DNA from: Branchiostoma floridae | Lineage: Eukaryota; Chordata; Leptocardii; Amphioxiformes; Branchiostomatidae | Assembly (NCBI RefSeq): GCF_000003815.2 | Contig: NC_049997.1 | Coordinates: 16,346,817 to 16,410,816, forward strand | DNA length: 64,000 nucleotides | Direction: 5' to 3' | Shown: piece by piece, positions 41,164-63,800 of the stretch | How the letters are laid out: each line of letters starts with the position of its first letter | Position numbering within the stretch: the stretch's first letter is position 1 | Made by a program: the position numbers and the translations under genes | Notes under the pieces: model-generated | What the model was told of the DNA's origin: nothing | Seen by the model: only the letters and a program-made list of their open reading frames with translations | Databases searched by the model: none

Positions 41164-41700
41164 TATATATAATACGAAAAGTTTTGTTTTAAATTATAAC
41201 GATACGATTTTATCCGGCCACCTATGTTTTAAAGAAACAAAACATTGGTAACGTTGGAACTTTGGAAACAATCCCCAGCGTCACGATGGCGATCTATGCC
41301 CCACGGTTCCTTGTAAGCGTTAATCTTATAGTCGATAAATTTCTCTAGAAGTTGTCGCCTCCAAAACGGTTCATTGTCTTGAGAAGCAAAGTGCCGACTG
41401 GTTATAAACCTTTAGGCTGAAATTTATCGTCTTTATCCATCTACAGTTTGTCATGACTGTCAAAAATGATAACTACTAATAATTTGGTAATATAGTGTAT
41501 TGCTGCAATTGGGATGCTATTTGTTTTATTTATGAAATTCAAAATAGCATGGACCTTTAGAATTCAGAACAGAATCCAAAATAATAAGGGAAAATCTATT
41601 TTATTCCCTTTTTTTAAACTTGGAAATGGAAAAATGAAGCTTCATATTTAACTAAAATGCAGCCGTCTTGGCTAGTTATCTGGAAATTGAAGACATCCGT
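41164..41700. other. intergenic DNA, no gene seen
   Basis: A/T-rich DNA without recognised repeats or coding signal. Confidence 0.3.
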
Positions 41701-41711
41701 TCACGACGTAT

Positions 41712-42167
41712 TGAGTCATCTGACTCATGCAAGGATCGAATTATACAGCCGTGTTGGCTTGATTTACTCAGTTTGAAGGGGAAGATTTGAGTCATGTGAC
41801 TCAAGCTTGGGAATCTGAGGCATATGACTCGTTCTATGGGATTTAGAGTCATATGACTCAAGCCTTGTCGTCAGAGTCACATGACTCAAGCCTTGTCGTC
41901 AGAGTCACATGACTCAAGCCTTGTCTTCAGAGTCACATGACTCAAGCTTGGTTTCAAGAGTCATATGACTCAAGCTTGGTTTTAAGAGTCATATGACTCC
42001 AGCCTTGGAATCTGAGTCATATGACTCAAGCCTGGTATTCAGAGTCACACGACTCAAGCCTGGTATTTAGAGTCACATGACTCAAGTCTTGTATTTAGAG
42101 TCACATGACTCAAGCTTGGTTTTAAGAGTCATGTGACTCCAGCCTGAGAATCTGAGGCATGTTACTC
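41712..42167. repeat. tandem array of a 14-bp palindrome, 28-bp period
   Basis: The core gagtcatatgactc or gagtcacatgactc occurs 14 times at a 28-bp step (41789, 41817, 41846, 41874, 41902, 41930, 41958, 41986, 42014, 42042, 42070, 42098, 42126, 42154), plus an outlier at 41712. Spacers are aagccttgtcgtca-like and vary more than the core. Each core combines a central E-box-type CANNTG with flanking TGACTC. Most cores continue into TGACTCA, the AP-1 consensus. Confidence 0.93.
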
Positions 42168-42805
42168 AAGTGAAGAAATATGAACATATGGGTCAGGTGA
42201 CTTAACTTGGGATCAAGAGTTCTAAGTATAAGAACGGTAGTAAGTGCAATGATTCACATCAGTTGAAGTGAAAACCTACTAGATTTTATTTCTATAGTTA
42301 TTGTTTACACAAAGTACACATGGAGAGCGTACACATGAGTTTTTCCTTCTGCATAACGGATTCAGGAAAGGGAAAACATATCGTCAACATATCAAAATTG
42401 AAAATAATAAAACAACTACACAATATATGTCAATTATACGATCACTACAGGGGACAAAACCCGTTCCAGGTACACTGACTCAGAGTTTCCATGGTTTGCG
42501 AAGCTTATGCTCATCCCTCCTCGTTTGAACGATGTTTAAACAAAAGTTCTTGATTATGATGAGTACTCGTAGCCTGGGTATCATCCTCCGTAATGACCGC
42601 TGGCTCACGACTTTCGCTTGCTAACCACGGAGTGGTTAACTCGTTAACTAATAAAGTAAAGTAGTACAAAGAATGATAACGATACTATTAACATAAACAA
42701 TTAATTAATGGTATGAGTTAACAATCAATGATAAAGTAAAGCAATACATAGAAAATGATGACGATGCAATAATGATAATCAAATAGAGGTATCAGTTAAG
42801 AAAAC

Positions 42806-42940
42806 ACAACACGGTGTATTCCGTATCACCTGAGGTTCCAGCCCGACCGTGGGAAGGATCGCACGACGGCCGAAGGCCGGAGGGTGATCCGACCCGCGGG
42901 AGGGCTGAGACCGAGGGTGATGCGGAATACACCGTGTTGT
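42806..42940. mobile_element. foldback MITE, 25-bp ends
   Basis: The left end acaacacggtgtattccgta (42806 onward) mirrors the right end ending tacaccgtgttgt (42940). The interior is GC-rich with cgacggccgaaggccgg and gatccgacccgcggg. It lies just beyond the 3' end of the ParB-like gene. Confidence 0.85.
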
Positions 42941-43308
42941 ATTTTATTTATGTCATACCCACCCAAACCCTTGTTTTGATGCGAAAGGTGCCAGAATTTG
43001 AACAAATTTGGTGCCCTCGAACAAAAAATGTTGCAACAGCAATGCTCGCTCGAAATGATTGGATTTACTCGAAGGAAGCCTGTGTGATACGCCTTTCGAA
43101 CCTGTGCGATACGGAAGTTATGGCCCGGTCCGGAACACCAGTATCGAACGTTTTCGCGTCATAAGTATGACATAAGAACAATATTTGTGGCTACTACACG
43201 GGACTCGGATTGTTTTATAGATAGATTTTCATAGCAGTTTTAAATGTCAGGAGTGAGAAAGTGAGATTTTTAAGGAAAAGAATATTCCGTTTTGCAACAC
43301 ACATGTAT

Positions 43309-46300
43309 CTAACGGCATGCATTTGTTGCCTTCACCCATTCCTCCACGGGCAAGGTCATGTCCTTGTCAAACACCACGGTTGTGGCTACATCACGAAAGG
43401 CGCAGGTGGTCGCGGGGAGCGACTGGCCGTTGCTCTTTTCCCGTTCGTATATGCCAGTTTGGTTGTCTGGCACATACCACACGAGCCGGAGCTTCTTTTG
43501 GGCAAGATTGACAGACACAACCCGCCCAAACCACGCCTCAATGTCGTCCCCGTCGTTCACGTTCCCAGGTACAACAACGAAGTCGTCAGCCTTGTACTGA
43601 CTCTCCTGTAAAACAAATGGCCCAAAGATGTGTGTAAGCTGAAGTCGAATTTTCGCAGCGGTGGACACGTAATTAGAAATAGTTAAGAAACGTTCCAAAT
43701 AATGACACCTAATTGACCTATCTTATAACTGTGAAACATTTCTAATTCACACAAAAAAAGGTGAGTGATAATGGCTGTTTCTTCACAAGTTCAGTGCAAA
43801 TTAATGGCATGCAGCTTCTGCAAGATAATTCAATAAAGTAGCACTCACCCCGTGAGCTGCGCTCCGTTGTGACTTCCTAACGGGCGCCTGTGCCAAAGAG
43901 AGACTGGTTAAAATGCGTGGATCACAAACTTAATTGGTCATTATTATTTCATTTTGGCACCGTGATTGTATGAATGTTTGTATTACTTCATATGATTGAC
44001 TTGTGTCATTGCTACATTTTGCATGCTTCACATGATCACAACGAAATGTATCACATCCAGTACACATTTCGTATCAAGTAAATGAAATTGAAGATTCTTT
44101 AACAATCACATAATACTACTGTCTTTGTCTTCGTACTGAACATTAGTTAAACATACCGACGGAGGTTCCTGCTCGCTGCTTTTCCTCTTGTTGCTGTCAA
44201 AATAAACAGTATTATAATTATTATTCTTATGATTCTATCCAGTAATAAAACAAGTTGATGCATAGCCGACCCACGTCTTTTTCCCGACAGGCAATGTCTT
44301 CTATTTTCGATAAAGCAAACGTTGTCTTTTTTAAATAATATTAAACAGTCACTGTAGGTGTAGATATGTTTCTTGCTTGTGAAAGTGGAAAACCGAGTAT
44401 CCTTTACATGTGAGGCTGGCTTTTACAGAAACTTCCAAAAAGGTTCTGAAAGGTGATTCACTGCATGGTGTTTCAGACGAAATTCAAATGATTTTCTTGA
44501 ATTATTATAGTAAGAAATATCTTTGTAGATTCTTACCTTGTCCGTATTTTGTCAAGTGTGCCATCTTCATTCTGTCAAAAAGAAACCATGGAATGTTATT
44601 AACCATTAGTTTCGTTCACATATGGTTGGCCGACAGCACGTTCTTGTTCATGATATAAGCATATTTATAACCAGGTATATCTTAAGTACTCAAAAAGGTG
44701 GGAAATCCCACGAAGAGCCTCATTTTAGCAATGCCAATGAAACAAGAGGTAAGCAATCATAACACCAAAAACATGAATACTTTTGATTCGGGGCATCTTG
44801 AAATGTATCAGTGATAAAAATTGGCAAACTATAACAATTCCTCCAAAACTTAGATGTCTGATACCGCTGTTTTTTCGTCCCTTAGCCTCTTGGTCATTGT
44901 CCGCAGACTTGCGACTTCCTAACAATCATAATAAAGGACACAACATACTTTATGGCCGACGCCCAGGAACATAATATCTACTTAACTGATAGGTAAACCA
45001 ACTCTAATCGCTCACTAATAATTACCCATATTTTGTATGGCTAGGTATCAGCCACTGCGCAGTACCCCACGACCCTATTTATGTAATTAAACCTTTAAAC
45101 CATTCTGATTGTGAAAAAGAGAACTCACCGCCAGTAGGTTTCTGTTCTCAGTCTGCAGATCGACATCGGCATCCTCATCTCCCCTGTCGTCGTTGTCTTT
45201 CTTGGCACCCTCCGGCTCCAGACCCCCTAGATCGGACTCATCATCTCCTCCGTCGTTCTTATCGTTCTTGGCACCCTCCGGATCCAACTCCTCAGCTCCT
45301 CCGTCACCATCTTTCTGGAGTGCGGCCGCTTTCATCTTCTGCTTGTTTTTCTTTTTCTCTGATTTGTTTGCTTCCTGTACGATATAATACGATAATCCAT
45401 TAGCATGTCTATCAAACTGATCGGAGTGGATAATCCAGAATAGGTTTTGTTGCAGGCGCGCGATGTGATCCATCTCAACATTTTGCGATAATCCAAACAC
45501 TGGTTGGCATGAAATACCTTCTGGAAGGTTTTCATCGTGTTATTTAATGCAGTGTATTTTGCTACTTTCAATGCACCACAATACAAAGTTGTCATGTTTA
45601 GAAGAACGTTTCCGCTCGTTACGTGTCCACGCCAGATACATGTAATGTGAAACTTTAAATACAGAGAACAATCTTGTGTTGGATGCATTGCTACATTCTA
45701 TGTTGCGAAGAATTACTTTGTCAATCTTCTTCAAAATAATAACTTCGGGAGGTTTGAGCAACTGTGAAAGTGTGATGTATACAGAAACCAATAGCATATG
45801 TGTGTGTGAGCCCTAGCTTGTAAAAAGAAGACGTACCGAAGTTTGCATGACTTCTTTGTAATCCAGTTCGCCGTTGTTTAGTCCTTGTAACGTTGACACC
45901 TGCTTTGCAGTCTCGTCATCATCATCGAGGAAGCCCAAATGAGTTGGTTTTAACTCTGTCTTCTTTTGCCCTAGGATTCGCCTCTCCTCCCACTTCTTGG
46001 CAAACTCTGTGATGCCGTTCCAGACTGCGCACGGCATTTCAGCCAGACTGATGGAACGTCTGTGCCTATTGTTGAGTTGTTTGCGCTGTTGATAAGATAG
46101 AATATTAGCATTAAATACCAATGCGCCATGTCCTGTAGGACGTGTAATTGCATGGCATCAGTAGATACCCCAGGCACATTTAAGAACCTACCACACGTGC
46201 GATGGTGAGGTGTGAGTGGTGCAAAACATACAGTCCCTTGGCCGCACCTGGGGCAATTACTGTCGTATTGAGGTCACCTGAGTGGCGCCGAATGGCAGCT

Positions 46301-49300
46301 TACTCCAGACCCTTGCGATTTAGCCCCGCCTATTGTAAGCTACTTGCAATTCAGCAACTGGCTGCCCACCCAATAACAATAACAATCTGTTTAAACTATC
46401 GTAAAAACCGTGTCCGTGTAACACAAACTCCGATGTCTGAGGCTGTAAAGCCCCGTTTACAAATCAAGAATTCAGCATTTTCGGGCGGAGTATGACCGGC
46501 GTTTAGGCGATTACGCGGGCTTCGGACGATTTTTAGCAGCTCGGTCGACGTTTGCGGGGCACTTGCAGCTGCGCTTAATTTTAGCGAGGCCTCGGCGGCG
46601 ATTGTTGAGCTCGGAGAGCTCGTCAATGGGTTGCCTGTAGCTCGAGTGGAGCTTTTCCAGGCAATGGCCAAGACTTGGCCAATACTCGGGCGGCAACCCG
46701 ACGGTTTTAGACTCTTTTTTTCGGTCGGAGTTTGCCCGAACTCTTCGGCGTCGCGCCAGCCTCGCTCGGGTTCCCTACAATAACCGGACGATATTCCGTC
46801 CGGCATTGACAAGTTGGGTGCGCTTCGGGCGGGCGTCGTGCTACTGTCGGTGGGAGCTTGGAAGGGCTCCGGCAGAATTTTAACTGTCACCTAATCGATT
46901 TTACACCTGTGTTGAACATATGCTTTTGTTTTTGGCTTTCATCTTTAGTAGACAGTTTGGTCCGTAATATAAGATAATAAAGACTACTGTATAAAATTTT
47001 CTAAGAATGCTGCGTACCTTTAATAATGAAAGGCAATTGGACACCAAGACAGTACTTCCCATTTATTTTTTGCTATTGGTTTGGATGTGTGAGATCATAT
47101 ATTCTTCATGTATGAAGGCTTCCAGGCTGAAACTCGGACGGCCTTTGCCAGCCTTCGACCGAGGTTCGCCCGATTCCTACTTTGTCAAAATTATTGTATT
47201 ATGCTGAATCAGACTGGTCTGTTCACTTTTTGGCTCTTGTGGTAGTTTTTGGATTGGTGTATCATAACATTCCTGTTAATATTATTGTTTTCAGTGTGCC
47301 CGTCCACTCCGCTCATATCCTACATATTTTCCGCAACTCAGAAATTAAAGTTAATACAATGTTTGCTTTTTACAAGGTTAGTCAGCTCTGAATTCGTCCT
47401 TGTTCAAGATATAGTACAATCTCATTAAACAATTATAATCAGNNNNNNNNNNNNNNNNNNNNNNNNNNNNNNNNNNNNNNNNNNNNNNNNNNNNNNNNNN
47501 NNNNNNNNNNNNNNNNNNNNNNNNNNNNNNNNNNNNNNNNNNATCGCGTATCGCCCAACGCCGGTCATACTCCGGCCGAAAATGCCCATTTGGAGCTCGC
47601 TGACAAGTCGGCCGAGCTGAATTATTGATTTGTAAACGGGGCTTAATACCCGCCTCACATTATATACGATCTTCGGACGTACTTCGCGATCGCAGGAAGG
47701 TCGGTTGATTTTAAGATCTTAAGATGGTCTTGCGTATTTTTCGCCCAAAATCTGTTTCCCTCACATATAAGCGAGCCTCGTGCGATCGACGGTGAATAAA
47801 TCTATGATAATGAACCCCCCATGACCTCTTGCACGCGGACAAGGGAACACAAAACGTTCCTCAAAAAAGGCAAGAGATCAATAAATGTTGCGTATTTTGT
47901 TGTCGGAATCTTTTTAACCAATGAATGGAATACGGGGGCATAATAGAAATGACACAAGAAAGGAAATTGTGTCACAAAGCCAGCCTACATACTGCCACAG
48001 GGGCCACAATGTTAGAATTACCCTCACTTTCCCAAAAAAAAAATCAATTTTTGTAAACAATCGGAAGTCGGGTGAACGTCGCCCGACTTACGGGCGTTCG
48101 CCATCCGATTTGCGTTCGATGATTAATAACTATGTCTGTGCTCGCCTATCGGTCTTCAATCGTTAGATTGACGCAAGACTATTGACCGATACCCTTGCGA
48201 GGTACGCACGATTTGCACGCACGATCTGCGACTCGGTAACGAGCTCTGCGATCTCCGAGATCTCCTGCGACTTGTCGCTTATGTTAAGAACATGTTTCGC
48301 TGCACCGCGACCATCGTAAGATTCCTGAAAATTGCCGACGATCCCTAAAAATCGCGAGAACACCGGACGTCTTACTCACGAAAATGTCATTTAGAGCTCG
48401 TAAACTAGTCTTCCGATCGAATCGCGCCTAATGTGAGGCGGGTATAACGACACTTGAGGTGGACTGGATATGGGCCAGGAATCAATAATGGGTGTGACCA
48501 ATTCGTTTGATAGAAGAACAGGCAAGAAAATACAAATGATGATGGAGGAGGGGGGGATACGGGGGAAAATTGGTATTTTCTCAAAGTACATTAACTTAAG
48601 TTTGTTTCATAGATAATCTTAAAGATATCAAACTCACCGGCTTAGTTTCTTCGTCTCCATCACAGCGCAGCATGACAGCCAGTCCTTCCTTCCACGCGTC
48701 CTTGGTTTTCTTCTCGGCTGGTGGCTCCACCGATGACATGTCACCGGCCCTTGTGAAGCCAGCCTTGTTGTACAGACTGGCTCTCATGCTGATCAGCTGG
48801 TCAAGGGTGGTTTCTGGCTTTGAATAATTCATGACATTATTATGGGCCATCCCAACCCGTTTGGCGAGGTCATCGGGCAGGCCGCAGTAAATATGCATGT
48901 GTACACTTGCGACGTCCAGTTTTTCGGGAGTGTCACGCAGTATCTCCTGCAGCGCAATCCTGGTATGATTGCCCCCGATGACCTCGTACCTGTACCTGTC
49001 AACCCTTGTCCTGTCGTAATGTTCCGTAGTCATCTCAGGGATGTTCCCGATGAGGACAGTCGTCATCTGTCCAGATGACGCGATGAACCGTTGTTTGAGG
49101 TTCGATACGTGTTGGGGGTCCGCCGCTCTCACCAGCCGCTTCCATGCTGGCTCTACCAGTCTTTTTATTGGGATGTCGAATGCCCCTGTAAAGTGCAATA
49201 TTTGCAGCTTTAAAGCTCTGTTGCTTAACATGAACTGATCTACCAAACCTTCATACCGGTTTCACAGTTGTCAGGAACAATTCAACATATGGAATTTACA

Positions 49301-52300
49301 TATGGAATGTAATTCTAGCGTCCATTTCAGTAGACTTTTACATTTAATCAAGTGTTTTGGGGGAGTCATGTTAATTCGCGCCTGTCTTTGGTGTCAGTTT
49401 AAATATGGGGGTACTGTTCCATTTTAGTTTTTGATACCCGTATGTAGGCGGAGCTTATGAAGTGCTGTACATGTTCAAGGGCCCTTTATAATAGCCTTAG
49501 GCTGGTTGGGTAGCCCTTGCTGTATGTGTTACTATGCAGCCGAATAAATAAATCAAATCAAATCAAACCAAAGGGTTGTGGGAAAGCAGTCCAACCAACA
49601 AGGGAAGAAGAGTGAGAAATGCCGCAAATGGAGGCGCATTAACTTACCCATGTAGTGACGCTTTATAGCCGCCATAGCCTCCTCTTCTGCGGTAGTCTTC
49701 TGTGCCGTCAGGTCACCTCGCTTGTTTGTAGACTGCTGGGATGTGGAGGCCGTGACGTCACCTCGATCACTTCCCTTCTGCTGGGTAGTAGAGGGCGTGA
49801 CGCCATCTCGATCACTTCCCTTCTGCTGGGTTGTAGTGGGCGTGACGTCACCTCGATGTTTCCCCTTCTGCTGGGTTGTAGTGGGCGTGACGTCACCTCG
49901 ATCACTTCCCTTCTGCTGGGATGTAGAGGGCGTGACGTCACCTCGACCTCCTCCCTTCTGCTGGGATGTAGAGGCCGTGACGTCACCTCGACCTCCTCCC
50001 TTCTGCTGGGATGTGGAGGCCGTGACGTCACCTCGATGTTTCCCCTTCTGCTGGGTTGTAGAGGGCGTGAAGCCACCTCGATCACTTCCCTTCTGCTGGG
50101 ATGTAGAGGCCGTGACGTCACCTCGATGTTTCCCCTTCTGCTGGGTTGTAGTGGGCGTGACGTCACCTCGATGTTTCCCCATCTGCTGGGTTGTAGAGGC
50201 CGTGACGTCACTTCGATGTTTCCCCTTCTGCTGGGATGTAGAGGCCGTGACGTCGAATAGCTCCTTCCCATTCTTAGACGAAAACGCTGAAGAGGCACAG
50301 GAGTTTGGTACACGAGGTTGACACCAGCGTTTTACAAAGAAATCTATGGCATAATGATATTGTATACTTTACGATGATGTTCTTTTTGATTGTAATTTTG
50401 TACAGATTTGAGCAAGACCGACTTTCCGGACTAAGAAAACATTGTTAAAAAACTGAAAGAAAAATTAGTCTTATTTGTTACCTTAAAGGCATACTACGCA
50501 GTTTTTTGCGCTCAATTTGAAATATTCTAGAATAAGAAATATCAGATTTACTACTACTTTTTGTCACTTTTTGACACTTTTGTGTCATTATTTCACGTTT
50601 GCAACGTAAAGGATTAGCCTACAAACATTCCGATCTAGGCACCCTGTAACCTTGTGTCCCCCCAAGTTAGACCCTCCAGGTCTTGCTTGCCACCGGTAGG
50701 TCCCCCGGGGTGGGGTAATCAGTTAGCACATGCATGGCAGACTGCAGATAAAGAACACAATGGAGATCTTCTTTGGAAACACCTATATCTAATCATTCTA
50801 AAATAGCATATAATCATGAACTTATTAGTCTATTTTGTAGGATATCAACAAGCTAAGGTCATATTCCCTTCAAAACTGCAAGAAACCTTGTACAGAAAGC
50901 TAGTCTACTGTACTCAGAGGAACTGTCAACTGGCCCCCCACTGGGAAGCCAGGCTGATAAGCAAGAAACAACAACACACAGAGGCAGTAACCAGCCTGTG
51001 CCCATCTGTTTCTTGGAAGATCACAATTTTTATACATCATGCTTATGTGGTGCATTGATGTCGCAGCATCTCTCAATGAATATTGGTATGCAATGCTATA
51101 GGGTTGATTGAGCTAACAATGTAAAGAAAAAGTAGGAAAAGCTACTTTTTGTTTTGTTCAAAAATCCCGTAGTATGCCTTTAAACAAACCAACAAATGAC
51201 TGGAAGCTTGTCCCTTGCTTGTTAGTATTGCATTGTCTGGAAACCTCTAAACCGCTTTGGATCTACAAGAGTAACACAGTTACATAGTCGTGTGGCTGTC
51301 GTTGTCTAGAGACTGTTGTCTTTAGTCACGCGGTCAGGAAGTATCCCAGTACACCCGCGCGGTAGGATTCCATTGCGGTGTGTGCGTGACCGGCAGTGAC
51401 CTCTTGCGCGCAAATCTAAACTCAGCAGTAACTGGCGGGAAACGCTTCTCCACCCACTAAAAAGTCGGTCGCACGTTCGTGTCCGAGGTGGTCGCACGAT
51501 AATTTCTAAGTATATAGCTAGAAAATCCGAGAAATGGTGTTATGCAATTTATAGTTTCTACCTATTCTTCAAGAATTTGGGCCATACAACGACACCATCC
51601 GACACAAGGGGTCGTGGGCACACTGTGCTCTGCTACCTCAACCGTGTAATGTGAGGAATTAACACCAACCCGGTAAGTAAGCTGAAATTCACTTTTAATG
51701 GGCTTGATCGTTTCCTGTGGCTGACAACTAAAAGTGTAAACTACAATTTGGTATATAGAGTTCTGTGCGTTCTGTGTTTCACCTTCCATCTCTCAAGATC
51801 TACGGTGCGTGTCTGTGTTCGCGTGTGTATTTGTGTGCCCTCGTGTGTATTTGTTTGCCTATGTGGCGGGTATGAGTGAGTGCTATATATAAATCAAGGA
51901 GGTTAAAAAAACAGCCTTGATATAAATATACTATCAAAAGTCGAAGTTCCTTCCCGCGCCTGATGGCGCATAGGGCGGCGCCATCTCCATTTCAGTAGCC
52001 CTGGGCCACACAGCTTTGTGCAATCACAGCAGGGGGCCAGTCCACTGGTATTGGTGTGTGTTCAACTGCCATATATACATACTCTTTCCCGGATGCTGAG
52101 TGCTAAGCAGAGAAAGCAGCATGTACAATTTTTAGAGTCTTTGCTATGACTCGGCCGGGGATCGAACTTACGACCTACCAAATGCATATGTAACGAGCTA
52201 ACGAACAGATGTTGGCAAGGCCATGTGGGAATGTTGTGATGACGTCATCAAAACAGTACGGTGTCTGGTTTCACCGTCAGACTATGGCAAAGAAGACTAC

Positions 52301-53770
52301 TCTCCAAGCAGAGGTAAGGCTCCGGCTGTTTTTTTAACGTTTTTTTAGTCGTTTTTATCGGGCTTTCTATTTTGTCATTTTTTTTTGCTGTGCCGGACAC
52401 AGCAAAAAAATGACCAAAAAAGCCCGATAAAANNNNNNNNNNNNNNNNNNNNNNNNNNNNNNNNNNNNNNNNNNNNNNNNNNNNNNNNNNNNNNNNNNNN
52501 NNNNNNNNNNNNNNNNNNNNNNNNNNNNNNNNNNNNNNNNNNNNNNNNNNNNNNNNNNNNNNNNNNNNNNNNNNNNNNNNNNNNNNNNNNNNNNNNNNNN
52601 NNNNNNNNNNNNNNNNNNNNNNNNNNNNNNNNNNNNNNNNNNNNNNNNNNNNNNNNNNNNNNNNNNNNNNNNNNNNNNNNNNNNNNNNNNNNNNNNNNNN
52701 NNNNNNNNNNNNNNNNNNNNNNNNNNNNNNNNNNNNNNNNNNNNNNNNNNNNNNNNNNNNNNNNNNNNNNNNNNNNNNNNNNNNNNNNNNNNNNNNNNNN
52801 TAGTAGTTTCTTGGCTTCCTTACTAGGCGTGTCTTCCATATATGCCCAGAATGGGTTCTTGCTTGCCAGGTCATCCCACTTCTTGACAAACTCGGCAGCC
52901 GTCTTTAGTCCATGGAACTTCTTGCAGAAGTAGTTCTGATCCACGTAGAATTTCGCCACTACGGCGCAGAAGTCTACCCCAGGGTCACCTCCTGCCTCGA
53001 TCTATAACAAAAGATAAGGCAGTGACTCATCAATATCTAGTAAATATGGAAGTTAACCAATCCTAGATCATACATATCCTCTTACATTAATTCTATCCCT
53101 TGCCAAGTTTACTATCGACTAACCTGGATGCCATACTGTTTCCATGGCCTACAGAAGCCAATTCCTCGGCTCTAGGGTCAACATACCCCCGAGGAAATTC
53201 TACAGCAGGCCCCGCTGAGATGAGCCCGGGGTCTGGCACGCAGACTATTGTAAAGTATGCTCAGATCCACCCGTGCATGGGTCCGGTAGAGCTCTTCAAT
53301 TATACCCCCTTTCCACTAGGACGGCGCTCTCGCCGCGCTCTCTCGGCGACCTACAATTTGACACATCATTCAACGAATTGTATCGAAAATAAACGAATCT
53401 TGTTACACTTTGTGTGTTTTGTTGTCTTCTCAATCACACTTTTACGTTTTGTATGATATACCCAGTGTGAAAGCGAAGGTTTCACATATGTTATTTAGGT
53501 CGCAGTGAGAGCGCAGCACGATCGCCGTCCTAGTGGAAAGGGGGCCTTATTACCCGACAGACGGCAATTATTTAATCTCGTACTACGAATGAATAACAGT
53601 GTAATTTTGAAAATAATGAATCAACTTACATACACAATCCCCGGCTTTTTCGTCTTCGATACGTTGATGACATCTCCGCCAACATCGTCAGCTCCTGAGG
53701 CATACGCGTAAATGTCGCCTTTTCTTACTTCAAACCACCAGCGGTCTGTACAAAGCGTATTCGATCCCAT
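43309..53770 (-). CDS. ParB/sulfiredoxin-like domain protein, multi-exon nuclear gene
   Basis: Coding exons in transcript order (high to low): 53770-53630, 53001-52801 (runs into a gap), 50286-49648, 49185-48638, 46085-45837, 45374-45129, 44571-44537, 44193-44157, 43887-43849, 43605-43309 (stop). All have AG/GT borders and all phases agree on both sides of the gap. The start ATG has a strong Kozak context (ccaacatgg). Exon 1 has DRWWFEVRKGDIYAYASG. Exon 3 has twelve 15-residue repeats (GDVTASTSQQKGKHR type). Exon 4 has the ParB-like core YRYEVIGGNHTRIALQEIL, followed by VHMHIYCGLPDDLAKRVGM. GGNH there corresponds to the GxRR/GGCHR signature of the ParB/Srx superfamily. Exon 5 is basic then acidic, exon 6 is Lys-rich then acidic, and the three microexons give KRKSSEQEPP. 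The last exon (YKADDFVVVP; IEAWFGRVVSV; LRLVWYVPDNQTGIYE) resembles an SH3/BAH-type fold. A nuclear role is inferred; activity is unknown. At least one exon, or an exon end, is lost in the 52433-52800 gap. Confidence 0.82.
46205..46325 (+). mobile_element. SINE-like fragment in an intron of the ParB-like gene
   Basis: The text gaggtgtgagtggtgcaaaa to ccagacccttgcga matches 34713-34823 in the same orientation. Confidence 0.6.
46447..47645. mobile_element. long inverted-repeat element with AAGCCCCGTTTACAAATC ends, intronic
   Basis: The left end (aaagccccgtttacaaatca) mirrors the right end ending ttgtaaacggggctta. The inversion continues inward (gcggagtatgaccggcgttt against aacgccggtcatactccg), so arms exceed 100 bp. 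The element is GC-rich at its ends and A/T-rich inside, and a 100-N gap (47443-47542) interrupts it. The 164-codon ORF at 46396-46890 belongs to the arm and is not a gene. Confidence 0.85.
47443..47542. other. assembly gap, 100 N
   Basis: A run of exactly 100 N inside the long inverted-repeat element. A round size suggests an unsized gap. Confidence 0.99.
47646..48446. mobile_element. inverted-repeat element with ATACCCGCCTCACATTA ends, directly abutting the previous one
   Basis: The left end atacccgcctcacatta (47646-47662) mirrors the right end taatgtgaggcgggtat (48429-48445). Subterminal acgatcttcgg/ccgatcgaatcg adds to the inverted structure. It is about 800 bp with no coding frame of note, and lies in the same intron. 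Confidence 0.85.
49718..50257 (-). repeat. coding minisatellite, 45-bp unit, 12 copies, in exon 3 of the ParB-like gene
   Basis: Twelve units encode GDVT(A/P)(S/T)T(S/T)QQKG followed by KHR, SDR or GGR, and a thirteenth is degenerate. Most units contain tgacgtca, the CRE palindrome, because Asp-Val-Thr is written GAC GTC AC. All changes keep the frame. Open frames on the other strand are consequences of the 45-bp period. Confidence 0.93.
50482..51184. mobile_element. 700-bp inverted-repeat element with TTAAAGGCATACTACG ends
   Basis: The left end ttaaaggcatactacgcagt mirrors the right end ending cgtagtatgcctttaa. It lies in the intron upstream of the repeat exon and has no coding capacity. 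Confidence 0.85.
51185..51954. other. intronic DNA, no exon supported
   Basis: Minus-strand ORFs at 51306-51497 and 51562-51789 lack convincing splice borders in a phase that fits the gene. The block is GC-richer than its flanks and may be a decayed repeat or a missed alternative exon. Confidence 0.35.
51955..52225 (-). mobile_element. tRNA-derived SINE-like element, minus orientation
   Basis: Read on the minus strand it starts with catggccttgccaacatctg, then a B-box-like aagttcgatccccg (about 52155-52168), then gctgctttctctgctta and the tail with agggctactgaaatggaga. This is the same order as 3158-3520. Confidence 0.72.
52298..52432. mobile_element. foldback element truncated by an assembly gap
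   Basis: The element starts with tactctccaagcagaggt. The stretch ttttatcgggctttct...tttgctgtg is followed at once by its complement cacagcaaaaaaatgacc...gcccgataaaa, and the N run begins where the arm would continue. Its outer end motif also occurs at 57309 and 59446. Confidence 0.75.
52433..52800. other. assembly gap, 368 N
   Basis: The gap removes the 3' part of exon 2 of the ParB-like gene (last readable residues KEAKKLL) and the far arm of the foldback element. Confidence 0.99.
53305..53544. mobile_element. MITE with 22-bp perfect ends, in intron 1 of the ParB-like gene
   Basis: The end ccccctttccactaggacgg (53305 onward) is exactly mirrored by the right end 53523-53544. The core (aaacgaatcttgttacactt) relates it to 30061 and 54035. 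Confidence 0.88.
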
Positions 53771-54034
53771 GTTGGCTGGTAGGCACGTCAGTAAAGTATG
53801 TATATATTGGAAGGAAACTTTAAGCTAAATTGCAACGAGAAGACTACCCGTGCTTCTGCTTCCTGACGTGGCTTCACACGAAGTGAGTCCAATCCATATG
53901 TGTGCCTGGTATCTTGTCGAGAGGAGACACGGCTATTAAGACGAGAGATGATATCTCTTCCAGATGAGAGGAGACACGGCAAGGCGAGTTTCGTGATGGG
54001 ACAGATTATACTTTGAGATCAGGCTGGAGTTTGG

Positions 54035-54286
54035 TTAAGGCCCCCTCTCACTTGACGTGCGGCACGCTTGCGGCTTTGCTGCGTTCGGAAGATGCTCGAC
54101 GAATTTCCGAGATAAAGAACGAATTTTCTTACTTGTTGTATATTTTGTCTTCTTTTATGTTATACTTATACGTATTGCGCAATATCTGAATCATAAAAAA
54201 TCGAAGAAAACAACAAAACAGTGACGCAGTGAACGAACGCAGCAATGCCGCAAGCGTGCCGCACGTCAAGTGAGAGGGGGCCTTAA
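54035..54286. mobile_element. MITE with about 53-bp arms, possible TTAA target
   Basis: The left arm ttaaggccccctctcacttg (54035 onward) and the right arm ending agagggggccttaa are complementary over about 53 bp with one or two mismatches. It lies in the 1.28-kb space between the two divergent genes. Confidence 0.9.
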
Positions 54287-54361
54287 CCGGGCTAAGGCTA
54301 GTGGTGCATAGCATAGCAGGTCACAGCAGAAGCTGAGGGATTTGGGGAAAACTTTCAGCTT

Positions 54362-54426
54362 GCTTAGCCGAGGACGTTATATCAGAGAAAAATTATATGT
54401 GATATTATATAACGTCCTTGGCTTAT
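54362..54426. repeat. short hairpin
   Basis: The stretch ttagccgaggacgttatat pairs with atataacgtccttggctta across a 24-bp A/T-rich loop. It lies between the divergent genes. Confidence 0.7.
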
Positions 54427-54433
54427 CCTCTTA

Positions 54434-54500
54434 TTAGTAGCCTGGAAACCATCCGATTTCTACCGGGGCTCCCTACACTCGGCGTCGCTACCCTAATCGA
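54434..54500. mobile_element. solo arm of the 59634 foldback element
   Basis: The text agcctggaaaccatccgatt and tctaccggggctccctacac matches one arm of 59634-59744. The other arm is absent. Confidence 0.6.
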
Positions 54501-55054
54501 ATGGTACCCGCGCTATCTAGTTAGCAAACAGCGCTTTGAAAATTAAGTCAGACATTAGATTGCGCTTCGGAACTTGTCACTTTTGGTTAGAGGTCAGGTC
54601 GCTTTCTCTGAAATTAAACTTAAATCTTATCAATAGGGTGAGCGATAAATAAGCTGCACAAATAGAAATGAAGGAGGACAATCGATGTTGCAGTCAATCA
54701 TTTGATACGACAACTTAGAAGGTTTGCTGTGCTCGCTCTAGATGCGCGCCAGATGCTGGCATAGATGGTCCTAGTTGCTTCGTACTTGAGAAAATGCACT
54801 TTTCTTCATTTCGTCATCAACATTTGCAACTAGAATATATTAATAAACTAGAATATATGTTGGAAATCGACACTTCAATGTGTCATGCAAATGACGCGTG
54901 AAATTCTTAGGCGCCACACATTCTAGCCCGTGCCATGTGTCCCATATGGGACGGGGCATACGAGCATTTCAAGTGCCCTTCCCTTCCCTTGAGTCCCACC
55001 TCTTTGACAGGCCCAGATTGATGTCACTTTGTTATTTTCAGTCGGAAACTCGCG

Positions 55055-56705
55055 ATGGCGTACACTCTGTCTCTTTTGTGGTTCTGTCTATGTTTGTGTA
55101 GTGCCGCTGCTTTATCCAGCCAGGTGAAGGAACATACTCTGACCACAGGAAGTAAGGCGAGTCAATGCAACAGCGTTCATCCCTCTAGGGTCACCATTCG
55201 TTTCGTTCAGTTCAGGCGGCGGGGGTTATGAGGACCAACCGCCACCAGACGACCCCGGGTTACCTCGTGGATTTTTCGTGTACGGAGAGGACATCACCGC
55301 TGCATTCTACACACTTCTCGACATCACAAGGACTATCATTCACCTAACAGACAGGTTTTGGGAGATGCTGCTTTGTACCTGGCGTTTCGTTTCTCGTTGT
55401 ATGGAAGTAGTTTTTTTCCTGACTCTACCGAGTTCCTCCCAGTACTGTACTCGGTTACGTGACGGGACGATCTTCTATGTAATTCCTCCCACTGGACCAG
55501 TTTTCCCTATCCGGCTAACAGAACTATCTGTCGAGCGCATCTATGAACAAATAGCCTATAGCACAGGGATTCCGACGACAGCGTTCAAGCTCTTCAAGAA
55601 CAGCAAAGAGGTAAGTTGTTCTCTTATGTAACGAGTACAAAAAAGAGAGTTGGATTTTGTTTCAAAACAAGTTTCAGCTTGGGACTCATTTAAATGGAAC
55701 GGCTGAGAATCTGTTCTTCTCGAGGACCACTCGGAGATACAGTTACTCGGAGAGGTGTCATGCAGGGACGGAGTTTCCGACCTAGCTCTCTCTCCCTACA
55801 TGACGCCTCCCGAACTGCTTATCCACGGTCCTCGGCAAGACCTGCCCTGACTCCCGAACACTCTCTGCCGACCCTAGCCAAGGACTGGTGGACCTTAAAA
55901 ATTACGTTGTGTGTTTAAAAAAAGCCTATTACTTATAACGTGGAGACGGCTTTAGTCAAGTAACTATACTGGTTCCCAGGTTCCAGGGCCTACACGGGTC
56001 AGTTCAGCTCTAGGGCCCCTGGAAGAAAAAATTATGTGCACATGTGTGTGTATCTGTGCATTTTGATGCTTGAGTCGTGGAACTGGCAAGTGTAGGCCCG
56101 GGCCTGTTTTCTGGCAGCTTCTCTTTCCAGTAGACATTTCAAATTACTGCCGTGCCTTCCTGAGCTATATAGTCCTCTAAGCCCTGATTTGGTTCAGTCT
56201 TTTGTAGAAATCCCGCAGATTGAATAATGAGGCTACTGTTGGTGGGGGGGGGGGCACCTTTTTTTCGCACGTTCGCGTCAGTATTCCAGTGCCCATAGAT
56301 GACTGAATCAAATCAACGTGACCTATAGGACACAAGCAGGTCCAGGCTTGAGGAAGCGCTCTGCATTTTGGGTTCAATCCCTATGTTCCGAAGGCGCTAT
56401 ACGTATGTTTTGGAGATCTCAATTACACTCGAGACAGAATATGTGTCTTGAAACAGCTGTATAATAAAAACAGTGCAATTTTGTTACAAAGTGTTTTTGC
56501 CCGCATACTTCCGTAAGCAACTTTGTTTACCGTTCAACTTTACCCTTTAGAATGTTGAACTGGTAGTAAGATTTTCGTACTTTGATTACAGGTTCGGCAT
56601 TTCTGCCAGATTGCAAACGGTGGGTCAGTTGAGATTACTATCCCGCTGCTGGGAGGAACACGGAAAAGAAAAAGGACCGATGACGTGACACCGTCGACCC
56701 GGCAT
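55055..56705 (+). CDS. ubiquitin-like domain protein with LLGG and basic tail; may continue into the 60884 exons
   Basis: Exons are 55055-55151 (donor aa/gtaagg, phase 1), 55216-55610 (donor GTAAGT, phase 0) and 56592-56705 (acceptor tttgattacag, donor GTAAGT, phase 0). Together they give 202 residues. Residues 4-20 are hydrophobic (LSLLWFCLCLCSAAAL), like a signal peptide or anchor. An acidic Pro linker (YEDQPPPDDPGLP) and a hydrophobic stretch (about 57-103) follow. Residues 116-186 look like a ubiquitin fold: PIRLTELSVERIYEQIAYST matches the ubiquitin helix region, and SVEITIPLLGG matches the last strand and the di-Gly end. The tail TRKRKRTDD follows the GG, as in ubiquitin-like precursors that are cut after the glycines. 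No stop is seen before the last donor, so more exons follow. Intron 1 is only 64 bp, so exon 1 is less sure than exons 2 and 3. A leader combined with a ubiquitin fold and a nuclear-type KRKR is odd. Confidence 0.68.
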
Positions 56706-57300
56706 GTAAGTGTTTGTATCAATTTCTATCTAGAAAACCGAAGTACTTTGGCACTCAAAGTCAAACATAGCCTCGGTAGCAATATCTGAAGTAGCGTAGC
56801 GTAGCGTTTGCAAGGATTTCATTGCTAGAAACCTAACCCAAAGTCCACCAAAAACAGTAGTATGTCTCCAGTTACCGACCCGACCCACCCCCTACGGCAT
56901 AGCCTGGTATCCAGACGTATCAGTAGTAATTGTCTCCCGAGACGAAAGGAGCCGAAAAGAGACTCCCAGCATAAATGCTTTTCACTGATAGAGCTATAAT
57001 ACATGAAGAGCTATAATACATGTACGTCTGGATGCCAGGCTTCCCGGCCGGCCCCGGTTTGCTCCGTGTCAGACATGTTCTTCTCCACAGTTCACCATAA
57101 ATATGTTTATTCGGACAAGTACGATACTCGTGTCTGCTTTGAAAAATTGAAGCTGTTCAAAGTGACGAGTAACGTTTCATGTCGTCACCCGAACTTTACC
57201 GATTGTGTAAACCGTCTGGCGACTTGTCTGTCCCTGTAACCAAGGAGTATTCATAGACTTCATTAGAGACCATTGACACAACTGAAGGAGTCAACAAACA
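56706..57300. other. intron or intergenic DNA, no exon supported
   Basis: The palindrome-like cagacgtatcagtag and tacgtctggatgccaggctt (56915, 57021) suggests a small inverted element (about 56903-57040). No coding signal was found. Confidence 0.4.
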
Positions 57301-57308
57301 AAAAACAC

Positions 57309-57471
57309 TACTCTCCAAGCATAGGTTGAGTCTCGGGCATATAGTAGTAGTCGGAAAATTTACAGACGCAGCCAGTAGAACTCCCAACCATCACTACCGT
57401 AAATGCAGAAACTTTCGCGGTGGTTTAATGTTCGCGTTTTTCTCCGCGACTCAACCTCTGCTTGGAGAGTA
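57309..57471. mobile_element. MITE with TACTCTCCAAGCA ends containing a piece of another MITE
   Basis: The left arm tactctccaagcataggttg (57309 onward) mirrors the right arm ending cttggagagta (57471). The interior contains ccgtaaatgcagaaactttc (about 57399), which belongs to the 19585/23215 family. The element is therefore chimeric. Confidence 0.82.
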
Positions 57472-57585
57472 CCTTGACACCACCCGCCAACATACCACTC
57501 CACCACCTGCCGTGTGGGGATTAGTTGTTGGAAATGAGGTAATTGCACTGAAAGTAGAACGACGCGTGCTGGGTGAAATATGTAG

Positions 57586-58803
57586 AAGGTTCCGGGTCGG
57601 AGTTCAAATCTGACTAGGCTCGACAGCCTCAAAATAGTGTTTTTGACATGAGTTTAAACCGCTCCTGTAGGAAAAGTAACCATCGCAGACAAACCAAATG
57701 TGGATATATGGTAGATATGAACTTTTAATTAATACAAATACATATTGAGAGAAAAATGTCCCGCTTAGTAGGGCGGCGCTTGTACCTTATATGACGTCTA
57801 GATGACGTAATTTCGACGTTTTCATCAGATGTCGCGATAAGTAAAAACAAACACCGTTTTGCATTTTTCTAGTTACAAATTTTCCAAAATCATTTCATTC
57901 TCTATGTCACTTGATTAGAGCCGACATCTGTCGTTCACCTAGCGCATATCTTCGCGATACCGTGCATTAATATGACTTAAATGGGCATTAAAGCTGGAAT
58001 CTTGGGGTTTAACTCAAGGATAAACTGGGTTTACTGACTTTCGGTTCATAGCTCCTTAACGCGGCGATATTTTTTTCTTTCAGTGGTATGTAGTAATAGC
58101 CTACTTAAAGCACTACACATCTGTGCCGCGCTTATTCAAACTGTCCGCTTCTAGCGCCGACAATAAGATCCAGTTTGTGTATTGCACTGTGTAAGAATGC
58201 ATTCTTGCACACATTTGGGGCGCATTGTGCTTCTTAAGGGGCCGTTCACGGCGAAGTAGTTAAGAGTTTGGTGTCGGACGCGTTTGATTCTGAAAGCGTG
58301 AGATCTGGTCTACAGCGCCACGTCAAAATCTGGCACATTCTTCATTTTACTTACAAGCGACGAACTTAAAACGCAAACCCTGCTGTTTTCCTTGAGCAAC
58401 CTCTGACGTCACGTCACTCCGTGACGTCAGCGATGCCAACTTTTAAAGACGGTTTTCTGCCGATGTGCAGCACCGAAAGGACGGAGAGCGCACATACCTT
58501 CCCGGACAAATTCATGCGAAGACTTTGCACCCTATTTTATCCGTTGTCAGAAAAGCGATGTCAGAAAAAAGCATGTTTTTAATGTTTCTCCATTATGACG
58601 TAGTTCCAATATGCATCTAGGCTTGACAGCCTCAAAATACAGCGTTTTTGACATGACTTTAAACCGCTCCTGTGGGAAAAGTAACCATCGCAGACAAACC
58701 AAATTTGGGTATATGGTAGATATGAACTTTTTGATTAATACAAATACATATTGAGAAAACATGTTCCTCTTAAAAGGTTCCGGGTCGGAGTTCAAATCTG
58801 ACC
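57586..58803. mobile_element. element with about 155-bp terminal direct repeats flanked by a 29-bp duplication
   Basis: Direct repeats are 57615-57769 and 58618-58774 (taggctcgacagcctcaaaa against taggcttgacagcctcaaaa, continuing through gtaaccatcgcagacaaacc). Outside them the phrase ggttccgggtcggagttcaa is found once before the first copy (from 57588) and once after the second (from 58777). This is the order of an insertion with terminal direct repeats, but a 29-bp target duplication would be unusually long. The interior of about 850 bp is non-coding, with several TGACGTCA-like words at 58404-58428. Confidence 0.65.
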
Positions 58804-59630
58804 TGAGTTGGCGGAAGGGTGGTGTAATAGGCCAGAAGTGCTCTGTTGTCTCCCTAACTTTTGCTCCCTATTGCTTGGTGACCGTTATAGCTGAGCATAG
58901 ACTTGTCGTATTTCCTGAAAAGCCCGTGGGTTGTATTATTTTTGTGCGAGGACTAGTTGGTCGGCCAGCGAAACCATTTTTTTATTAGTCCGCTGCAACG
59001 GTGATGCGTTTTTTTCGCCCGATGACCCAAATAGCAGCGTTTTTCATGCGATTTCGATAAAATTACGTCATCGGAGATTACAAAAAAGTTATCACATGGA
59101 ATTTTTTATTTTCATTTTACAAAAACATGAAGAATTTAGCTTCTCTACCACGTAGGCCTTTATCCTGGGAAAATTCGTTTTTTCCAAGCAGCTTCGAACA
59201 AAAAAGTGTCAAGAAATTATAGTTTTCGGGTCCAAAATTAAAATGTTACTACATATTCTACCCAAAATAAAGAGGCAACAGACGATACCAATAGGTTTGT
59301 TGGAAAGAGGCAGTAAACGGCTTTCCGCCATATTGATTAAGTTTCGCGTTCTACGTTTACTAGCGGAACTGTAGCCCTTCGGCCTGAGGCTGCCTGCCAA
59401 CCTCCGAAATGGTAAAAGAAACTCCGGTCCGATACCAGAAAGACGTACTCTCCAAGCAGGTGTAATCCATCTTTATTACAGTGTTTTACGCGTGTGTTTG
59501 CTGCATATGATCTTCGGCGAATCTTTTTACATTTTGGCGTGTGAACAGAAAGCTGACGGACGACTTTGGCATATGTCATTGTCGTACGACCAGAAATATT
59601 CCTCGTGTGAACCGGGCCACTGCAGGCCGA
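58804..59630. other. intron or intergenic DNA, no exon supported
   Basis: Contains a solo tactctccaagcagg end (59446-59460). The short ORFs have no features. Confidence 0.4.
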
Positions 59631-59633
59631 TTT

Positions 59634-59744
59634 CTAGCCTGGGTACAATCCGATTTCTACCGGGGCTCCTTGGTAGCGAGTGTAAGGAGCCCCGGGTAGC
59701 GAGTGTAAGGAGCCCCGGTAGAAATCGGATAGTACCCAGGCTAG
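59634..59744. mobile_element. 111-bp foldback element
   Basis: Arm 59634-59670 (ctagcctgggtacaatccga onward) is mirrored by 59708-59744, around a loop with two copies of gtagcgagtgtaaggagcc. A solo arm is at 54434. Confidence 0.88.
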
Positions 59745-60147
59745 CCGCTTCCAGCTTCTCATGAATGAATAAAGGTTCAAACAAACAAACCTCTCTCACC
59801 ACAGGAAGCCTGCCACATGGCCAGCCCAACACATGGCAGAGCCATTAGGTAGACCACTGCGTTATGTGCAGACACAAACAGCGCCAATCGGTGTAACACA
59901 AACCCCGTTGTCCGGGCAAGGCTACACAGTTCTAACCCGGAGCTCGGTCGGGATGTTTGCGGAAACGAAAAATTGAAATGTTAATCTATCAATGAATATA
60001 TACAAATTATACCCACGATTGCTAATTTTACGATCCGGCCTGGTACTCGGGGTCAGACATTTCCTTCTTCATCACCAATGATCACAACTTTGTTAAGTTT
60101 CGAAACATATTCCGTGTCTGGTTTTAGAACATCGAAGCTGAACTTAA

Positions 60148-60240
60148 GTGTGTGTGTGTGTGTGTGTGTGCGTGTATGTATGTGTTTGTGTGTATGTGTG
60201 TGCGCCGCGTGAGTATGTTTGTGCGTGCGCGCGCACGCCC
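60148..60240. repeat. (TG)n microsatellite
   Basis: gtgtgtgt tract with cgtgtatgtatgtg interruptions. A second (TG)n tract flanks the far side of the gap (60530-60562), so the gap is probably repeat-caused. Confidence 0.92.
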
Positions 60241-60363
60241 AAGCACGCGAGTGTATTCGTAATTTTTTTTGTAACCTCCACCAGACCTTCCTACTCAGTA
60301 CGGGCCCACGGATCTTAAAATTCAGCAAACAATCGGCAATAAGGCCACGAGGAGTCAGTCCAC

Positions 60364-60529
60364 NNNNNNNNNNNNNNNNNNNNNNNNNNNNNNNNNNNNN
60401 NNNNNNNNNNNNNNNNNNNNNNNNNNNNNNNNNNNNNNNNNNNNNNNNNNNNNNNNNNNNNNNNNNNNNNNNNNNNNNNNNNNNNNNNNNNNNNNNNNNN
60501 NNNNNNNNNNNNNNNNNNNNNNNNNNNNN
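60364..60529. other. assembly gap, 166 N
   Basis: A run of 166 N that ends directly in a (TG)n tract. Confidence 0.99.
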
Positions 60530-60847
60530 TGTGTGTGTGTCTGTCTGTCTGCGTGTGTGTGTGCATGCGCTCTTTTTTTTAAACAAGTTACACTGACATG
60601 ATTCTATAGTCTGCTTATCAATTTGCACCGTTATTTGATAAAGTTGGAAGAGATTACGCCCCCTATTGACCCCAGTTGTTTTCCCCTGTTGTATTATTTA
60701 TTTTTAAACGTGTTTTATGTTCGCCTATTAAGTAGTCTTGACATTATTAGTTAGTTGCAAAGAGTTTGTATGTGTAAGGCATAACTGATCGTTGGTTCCG
60801 AAGTTTTCAGCGTTATATGCCAGCTGCATGATGTAAGATATAGATCA

Positions 60848-63800
60848 ATGCTAGATCTAATACTTTGTGACTTCGACTTTCAGAATGATGTCCCTTCCAA
60901 ATCTGTAACGGATGATTCACTGCTTCATGCCGAGGAGGAAACATGTGGCTGCGGGGGCGCTTGCAACTGCCTCGCTTTCACGTCAAGCAAGAAGGCGAAC
61001 TGTGATCTACCAACGGGCCACGTCAAAGATGCTGTCCGCTCCAACCGTTCCATTCCGTACAACGTGTCAACATGGTTGAGGTCCTGCGGGAATCAGAAGC
61101 ATGCACAAAACCATGATGGACAAGTCTCCCACACTTCATCTGAACACTTCAAATCGTTCCCACTACGGCCACTGTCCCGTTCGCCTGTAATCACTGGATT
61201 GTCCCCTCTGAGGTCATCGCCCCGTTCGCCTGAAGCAGCTGAATCGTCCCCACTTCGGCCGTTGCTCCGTTCGCCAGAAGCAGCTGAATCGTCCCCACTT
61301 CGGCCGTTGCTCCGTTCGCCAGAAGCAGCTGAATCGTCCCCACTTCGGCCGTTGCTCCGTTCGCCAAAAGCAGCTGAATCGTCCCCACTTCGGCCGTTGC
61401 TCCGTTCGCCAGAAGCAGCTGAATCGTCCCCACTTCGGCCGTTGCTCCGTTCGCCAGAAGCAGCTGAATCGTCCCCACTTCGGCCGTTGCTCCGTTCGCC
61501 AGAAGCAGCTGAATCGTCCCCACTTCGGCCGTTGCTCCGTTCGCCTGCAAGTACTGGATCGTCCCCATTGTTGTCGTCTCCCTGTTTGCCTGCATATAGT
61601 GGATCGTCCCCATTGCAGCCGTTGCCCCGTTCGCCTGAAGCATCTGTACTGTCTCCACTGCGGCCGTCGCCCCTCTCGCCTGCAACTACTGGATCGTCCC
61701 CATTGCAGCCGTTACCGCGTTCGCCTTCAATCTCTCCAGTTCAGTCATACACAAGCAACCCATTGAACGATGTGTTTGATTTCAACGAGCCTGATACACC
61801 ATACTCCCCCGTTATACTGTCCCCCCGAAAACAGGCACAAGATCTAGATGCCGACGACATGTCCATTAGTAGCCAGTCAACCCACAGTGACAGTGAAGCC
61901 AACGAAGATTTTGCATCGTCAGACATGGAGTCAACCGATTCCGAAAATTTGGACAGCTCATATTTCGCAGAGCCTCAAGTTCGGCCTAAAACTTCGAGAC
62001 GTTGCAAAGATTCGGAAGTAAAGAGCAGGAGCAAACTACTACTACGTGCTATACACCCGACTACGCTGCGAAAGGTTGCTGCACTTGAGCGTTGCTGTAA
62101 GAAAAACTGCGCTTCTCGATTTTCCAGATCAACCATGAAGGCGAAAAGGACGGACTACTTCTGTGCAGAATCAAGGAAACGATGGATAAAAGAAAAACTT
62201 GGAAGCTTTCAAGTCGGAAGGGAAAAAGTGTATTTCGAATTCAAGGTTGACGGCATTGTATTGTGCAGGGAAGCGTGGTGTCGAGTTTATGGTATTAATA
62301 AAAACGCATACTACCGGGAGTTAAAGGATTTCAAGCTGGGGCTGGAGTGGGACGGACTAAGGCGGGGAAGGTCTTTATCCATTCAATGCGTAAGCGCCTC
62401 CGTCTGGTTTGGGTATTATGTAGCAAATCATGGGGACAAAATGCCACACAAGAATGAAATATGGCTTCCGTACAACACCCGAAAAGTTGACATCTACAAC
62501 AAATACGCAGAAGAATGCGAGGAGCGCTCACAGAAGTTCTGTTGTGAGGAGTCTTTCCGGAATATGTGGAAGTACTTCTACCCCCACGTTTCAATAAAAA
62601 CGGTACGATTTCGATACAGGCAGATTTTGATTTGAAAATATTTTTCAGTCAGTTTTGAAGCGACGTTTGATTTGATTTCATAGTTTCAACTTGCCTACAA
62701 TACTAAATGGTAATTTTCTTTTCTTAACAGTGTAGTCTCTTTACAAAGTGTACCATCTGTGTGCGCCTGGGACGGAACCTGGCTAAAACAAGGGACCCTG
62801 TCAAGAGGAGGGAGATCAAGTTGAAGAGACAGGAGCACGATGCCAGGCAAATGTAATGTCTTGCACTATCATTAGTCATTGCCATTGCTCGTTTTGCAGG
62901 TAATATAGAGATTTTGTGAGATCGAGTGGCGTATTGGCATTGTGTTTGGCTTGGTCCCATGTCCGGCCGTTGTCACCGATATTGTGTCTTCCGAAAAGGC
63001 ACTTAACAAACTTTCCTCACTTCACTCCGGTTAAAATGAGTACCTAGCGTCGGATAGGACGTTAAATGTAAGTCCCGTGTTTGGGGAGCCACACCGCACG
63101 TTACAATTACATGAGTAATTCAGCTGGTCTGAATCATAATGTTTATGACTTAGGGAGAAGAGATGCTGTGTATGTCACCCGTAACATTTGAGTGCCTTTC
63201 GGGTCACACTTGAAATGACCTTCGTGATTGTGTTACGTGGTGACCTTACTAAAAGGTCCTTTATGTCTTGCTTTGAGTCCCGTGATATTTGTTGGCAGAG
63301 ATAACGATTTTATCAATGTGCTTCGTTGTCTTGGTTTCGGGTATCACGTTTGCTTATCGCTTTAATATTTATTTTTCAGGGCTGAGCGACTGGCCTACTA
63401 TCAGAGACGGGAAGCGGCAAGGAAAGAGCCTGAAAAGTACCTCAGCCTTATAGTCGATGGTGAGGAAAGTCTCCTTTTGAACTATAATAAACACAAGTCT
63501 GGCACCATCCCATATTATGTAAAAATACACATACTTAGCATATAGCTAAAATATCATCTTATTTTTCGTTGCATCAGACACAGAGACCAATAAGCTTAAG
63601 CCACTGATTGTGTACACATACAGGAATGGATCAGGCCAAGACGTACTTGCCGCATTTCGTTGGAGACAAGTCAAAGGTACGAAGATTGTATTAACTGATG
63701 TTAAACGTTTTTATTTACGTCGTTAATTGATAACTCCTTATGCAGGTGTTATGGATTACAATGCCATGTATAATTTTAAGGTTCTCTGAACTATTCTAGT

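Follow-up and report, generated by a model that had tools for sequence, protein, structure and literature searches.

A 548-nt exon of an amphioxus (Branchiostoma floridae) gene very probably encodes a domain of the ParB-N/Srx superfamily, named after the bacterial DNA-partition protein ParB, and the gene, which is spliced, very probably serves a giant DNA transposon as an accessory gene. The exon lies on contig C19 in the window, by which we mean the whole 64,000-nt stretch of DNA analysed here. The earlier note on this DNA, which had picked out the exon and its domain, overlooked this context: the gene sits within a 29-kb transposon with terminal inverted repeats that reaches from window position 41568 to beyond the window end.

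The spliced gene and its ParB-like exon

The exon described in the earlier note, 548 nt long with AG/GT borders, is present at window positions 48638..49185. Its strand had to be set to minus, where the frame is fully open (182 aa), while the plus strand contains stops; the peptides quoted for it, YRYEVIGGNHTRIALQEIL and HMHIYCGLPDDLAKRVGMAH, are both found in the minus-strand translation. It is bordered by AG at 49187-49186 and GT at 48637-48636, begins with two nucleotides of a split codon, finishes in phase 0 and carries the motif GGNHTR, followed by ...PDDLAKRVGMAHNN. That it belongs to a spliced animal gene with in-phase neighbours, as had been claimed, is borne out by eight exons that form a single open frame ending in a stop, with AG before each of the eight and GT after each exon that has a following intron.

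All exons lie on the minus strand. The first of the eight, at 49648..50272, has a tentative 5' acceptor, carries 45-bp coding tandem repeats with a 15-aa unit (e.g. VTASTSQQKGKHRGD) and ends in ...HYM|G; its number of repeats is not equal in the C19 copy and in a second copy of the gene on contig C8. Downstream of the ParB-like exon follow exon B (45837..46085), which is kept in paralogues on C4 and C16, exon C (45129..45374), lysine-rich and then acidic, and three short exons, D (44537..44571, 35 nt), E (44157..44193, 37 nt; SNKRKSS..., compare NKRNISG on C4) and F (43849..43887, 39 nt). The last exon (43309..43605) has its stop at 43309 and encodes a C-terminal domain of about 98 aa, WFGRVV...VWY, for which no convincing match was found in PDB or PHROGs. 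Of the ten or more exons first suggested, eight are established, and a ninth, upstream at 52822..53001, is plausible, with reading frames that differ between C19 and C8 and an assembly gap adjoining it. The C4 paralogue carries two additional coiled-coil exons.

Searching the genome (513,431,437 bases in 431 contigs) revealed a 100% identical copy of the ParB exon, two 41% relatives and one 33-34% relative on other contigs, and these exclude a chance open frame. In the C4 paralogue (stretch L037), where identity in the ParB exon is 41%, the ParB, B, lysine-rich, small and last exons occur in the same order and phase as in the window (phases by eye). Since the C19 and C8 copies are near-identical and so are those on C4 and C16, the four main copies represent two lineages. 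The relative on C14 is a single open frame of 491 aa, in which a 33-bp coding repeat precedes the ParB-like domain. Bacterial contamination is ruled out by the introns, the in-phase exons and the paralogues on several contigs.

By sequence comparison the assignment of the exon as ParB-N/Srx-like is well supported. The earlier claim of a ParB/Srx-like domain is upheld by PHROGs, by a viral profile and by profile-profile alignment, and not by sequence matches to Pfam ParBc or PDB. In PHROGs, the top two families for the window exon, phrog_723 (E 3.4e-4) and phrog_6392 (5.8e-3), are both annotated 'ParB-like partition protein', as are the best two for the C4 exon (phrog_6392, 7.8e-5, and a second family, 6.3e-4); for the C14 relative a family of unknown function ranked best (0.0061) and a ParB-like family second (0.015). 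At E<=1, PHROGs returned nothing for two other exons of the ParB-like gene, nor for the second gene of the element described below. With tblastn (limit E 10), four of the five weak phage records found with the window exon are annotated as ParB (two phages, each twice; best E 0.4), and so are four of the seven found with the C4 exon (three phages, one of them twice; best E 0.02).

The viral profile was built from 45 non-redundant members of a set of 84 sequences, consisting of five phage proteins and 79 viral loci drawn from the best 80 of 273 relatives, and was run against 1,957 six-frame ORFs from the window and ten stretches of the same genome, plus their reversals. It matched four of the 1,957 ORFs, all of them ParB exons (E 1.6e-7 for C4, 2e-7 for C16 and 2.1e-5 for both C8 and the window), with the next best at 8.9. 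None of the 1,957 reversed ORFs was matched at E<=10, and neither was the C14 ORF, which was among those searched. Profile-profile alignment with hhalign gave 96.4% and E 1.3e-9 against a phage set that had itself been picked by earlier weak matches. A single-sequence Pfam search, which had been suggested as a check, gave no ParBc match for the members tried, single-sequence searches of NCBIfam and PDB likewise gave them no ParB match, and a profile built from four members did not detect ParB in PDB. PF02195 (Pfam ParB_N) has zero matches in this genome, compared with 11 positive among 14 control genomes. At the search thresholds used, no homologue was found in viral contigs, phages, prokaryote genomes or plasmids, and AlphaFold run on the single sequence of the exon yielded no usable model (mean pLDDT 36).

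The arginine pair of G-E-R-R is absent. Set against the phosphate-binding motif G-x-(R/H)-R, the domain has G-N-H-T-R in the window and in C4/C16 and G-N-H-R in the C14 relative. GNHT is present in 33 of 33 rows of alignment A4, and phage DLP_3 has GHHR. Phage ParB-like proteins (PHROGs 723 and 6392; mycobacteriophage Indlovu gp1 and its relatives) have EV(L/I)xGNHT...A in common with the amphioxus domain and, as here, also possess DD-x-A-x-R-(I/V) and an N after the GNHT pattern, with significant profile scores; they differ in that identity is 13-22% (alignment A4), their genes have a single exon and the flanking parts are others. Sulfiredoxin is the known eukaryotic protein with a ParB fold, and the GNHR of the C14 relative resembles its G-x-H-R type motif. 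However, all four aligned members have Asn in place of the catalytic Cys of GCHR, and size and context are different; the absence of this Cys rules out sulfiredoxin identity.

Element ends and palindrome arrays

The element measures 29,198 bp (C19:16388384-16417581), and 41568..64000 is the part of it inside the window. Its left terminal inverted repeat (41568..41788, plus strand) extends over at least 221 bp and is 100% identical to the inverted C19:16417361-16417581, and the 4-bp target-site duplication TCAG at 41564..41567 has its partner copy at C19:16417582-16417585. When the terminal 227 bp were compared with the genome and 40 of 78 candidates scored, a second perfect inverted pair was found at C8:22788281...22821852 (33,572 bp), again 221 bp long, a length limited by the end of the query. 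The C8 copy is flanked by its own 4-bp direct duplication, CTGT (all four C19/C8 ends were read). Perfect inverted ends combined with different 4-bp duplications are the signature of independent DNA-transposon insertions. Window 41562-64000 is repeated on C8, mostly at about 99% identity, in pieces split by insertions and assembly gaps. A 4-bp target-site duplication is a feature of the Sola superfamily, and TCAG and CTGT agree with it; Polintons have a 6-bp target duplication and are ruled out on this ground. One element end lies 1.7 kb beyond the end of the ParB-like gene, which is transcribed toward it. The gene's place inside an element of about 30 kb with inverted ends makes it look like a helper gene of the transposon and not like a host gene.

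Close to the left end, at 41711..42167, is a subterminal array whose 28-bp repeat units contain the 14-bp palindrome GAGTCAYRTGACTC, and in this array we counted 14 sites with at most one mismatch compared with 0.07 expected; the first of them overlaps the terminal repeat as searched. On C8, two palindrome arrays 33 kb apart flank the ParB gene, that is, they occupy both element ends. Genome-wide we counted 71 places with the exact form GAGTCATATGACTC versus 1 for a reversed control, and the 50 of these that were listed make up 11 clusters. For these listed places, and with 40 of 78 terminal-repeat candidates scored, all seven clusters with two or more sites adjoin a terminal-repeat match, as do none of the four single sites.

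A tandem array of another kind, with a 25-bp unit and inverted arms GCGG...CCGC, is found on C4 at L037 429-828, 1.5 kb downstream of the stop of the ParB gene, and falls outside the stretch common to C4 and C16. Since this array and other minisatellites show tandem arrays to be common here, we judged the palindrome array solely by its link to the terminal repeats.

We tentatively propose that the palindrome arrays at the two element ends serve, in one form or another, as binding sites of the ParB-like protein, a proposal that may well prove wrong but deserves to be taken seriously. The bound protein might be a nucleotide-gated clamp, as ParB is on parS, and, in an element of such length, might help to pair the two far-apart ends, to mark them or to protect them. 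Taken in full, as a ParB-parS-like system of an animal transposon in which a nucleotide-gated clamp at the end arrays joins or marks ends 29-34 kb apart, this model is speculative and, on balance, unlikely. If true, it would solve the problem of end pairing for a very long cut-and-paste element in chromatin.

The arrays could instead be bound by the transposase, with the ParB-like domain acting as a nuclease or as a chromatin-acting factor. A more specific version, in which the domain is a ParB/Srx-fold nuclease or NTPase (Osa/GmrS-like) that serves the element by nicking or degrading DNA and is no clamp, is possible, although we would not expect it. The motif GNH[T/R] recalls the nucleotide-binding signatures GCHR of Srx and DGQQR of GmrS described in PMC4619093, and 'ParB-like nuclease domain' is the annotation given to several phage relatives, yet no nuclease active site can be pointed out in the amphioxus sequence and the phage annotations are themselves predicted.

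The partner gene and the question of cargo

Near the far end of the window, at 60785..63678 on the plus strand, lies a divergent putative transposase gene with a long first exon reaching to about 62600, later exons near 62731-62855, 63380-63459 and 63578-63678 (splice sites and phases by eye) and a continuation beyond. From its co-travel with the ParB-like gene and its position we infer that this partner gene encodes the transposase. It has no Pfam transposase match, and an RFX match (0.005) was below the cut-off and was set aside. Its long first exon contains 45-bp coding tandem repeats. These repeats (61152-61725, SPLRPLLRSPEAAES type) are unrelated to the 45-bp coding repeats of the ParB-like gene (49733-50254, VTASTSQQKGKHRGD type), and repeat numbers in both genes differ between C19 and C8. 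At 55143-55631 on the plus strand is an open frame that, judged by eye, finishes in a ubiquitin-like sequence (RLRDGTIFYVIPP...) and has no Pfam match.

The conserved part of the partner gene has 18 matches in the genome, or 15 places after close ones are merged. Six of these places have a ParB-like place no more than 25 kb away; the figure for chance, per ParB place, is about 0.0015. Partner gene and ParB exon are 13.4 kb apart on C19, 15.9 kb on C8, 21.4 kb on C4 and 24.0 kb on C16, and the two genes are on opposite strands in all four. Fragments of the partner gene are also found near ParB-like places on C5 (0.7 kb) and C234 (8.8 kb).

Among the 40 scored terminal-repeat matches, 24 form 12 inverted pairs, two neighbours on C3 make a pair that faces outward, and 14 stand alone. 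Ten of the inverted pairs, further to those on C19 and C8, show 77-98% similarity across 47-128 bp of the query and are spaced 12.5-19.1 kb apart. None of these ten more distant pairs holds a listed ParB-like or partner-gene place, so a family-wide need for the ParB gene is not established. The boundary sequence of the C4/C16 copies matches only itself in both copies and has no inverted partner, and an intact C4/C16 element is therefore not established either. Elements of 12-19 kb with related ends include C17:712994-732100, where palindrome arrays are present at each end, and C15:3770708-3783246.

Comparing C19 with C8, we found the seven non-repeat exons free of mismatches over the 1,448 of their 1,451 nt that aligned, the repeat exon being left out of the count, versus 35 mismatches in 5,389 aligned nt of introns and 3' flank, where each stretch contributed its top one or two alignments and 15 of the 35 mismatches fall in one intron. 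At the non-coding rate about 9 exon mismatches would be expected, or about 6 without the 15-mismatch intron, and thus the coding part of the gene appears to have been under constraint since the copies split. Between C4 and C16 the ParB exon has dN 0.020 and dS 0.043, values with few changes behind them. The C-terminal exon differs by an indel between these two copies, and its dN/dS value, computed out of frame, was discarded as invalid.

This constraint, together with the many introns and their conserved phases, gives the gene a host-like look, and one may ask whether a host gene with a ParB-like domain and a host role was taken up as passenger cargo, the transposon merely duplicating it. The C14 relative would also suit such a history, since it is a single 491-aa frame and the genome search with the conserved part of the partner gene found no partner-gene place on C14, and so would the ten related inverted pairs that lack a ParB-like place. 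However, each of the four main copies, which stand for two lineages only 41% alike, has the partner gene no more than 25 kb away; many decayed ParB-like fragments and some of the partner gene are scattered over C6 and small contigs, as is the case for mobile DNA; and an algal transposon is reported to have the same arrangement (PMC12477816). We therefore think cargo quite improbable and retain the reading of a transposon accessory gene. That the C19 and C8 copies arose by segmental duplication or assembly artefact and not by transposition is barely credible: it would agree with the assembly gaps that both copies have and with their identity of about 99% across most of 22 kb, but the perfect inverted ends lie exactly where identity stops, the two 4-bp target duplications are different and related inverted pairs exist at 10 further sites.

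Broken ParB-like exons are numerous on C6 (about 19.7-28.0 Mb), C165 and C234, a number of them interrupted by stops or frameshifts, and decayed ParB-like as well as some partner-gene fragments are found on C6, C234 and small contigs. The fragments on C6, C165 and C234 look like a graveyard of the element.

Comparison with known systems

The closest parallel is Sola1-1_Ec32 of the brown alga Ectocarpus, described in 2025 as a giant transposon 21.5 kb long in which the ParB-like gene and the transposase occupy opposite strands; its ParB-like protein has 1104 aa and includes a DNA methyltransferase domain (PMC12477816). The amphioxus element likewise is giant and carries a ParB-like gene opposite a transposase, here a putative one. 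The amphioxus case differs from the algal one in its animal host, in the repeat-rich N-terminal part and WFGRVV C-terminal domain of the protein and in the palindrome arrays at the ends (C8 copy). Pfam detected no methyltransferase in the exons scanned of the amphioxus gene. KolobokP composite transposons (PMC9587614) are an example of animal DNA transposons reported to have a nuclease besides the transposase, but they belong to another transposase group and their accessory fold is a His-Me finger.

ParB-like accessory genes in giant transposons are thus already known from algae (PMC12477816). Titles and abstract openings in the open-licence literature reported no ParB-like gene in an animal transposon, and a giant transposon of an animal with a ParB-like gene, no methyltransferase detected and palindrome arrays at its ends appears to be a new form of such elements. 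With its animal host, different architecture and end arrays, it suggests that a strategy for the movement of very large DNA elements is more widespread, and the palindrome arrays offer a concrete DNA target for testing a eukaryotic ParB-like protein.

Elsewhere in the window, other perfect palindromes of 14 bp lie at 33436, 33610, 34022 and 52237, and three copies of TGATGACGTCATCA are included among them.
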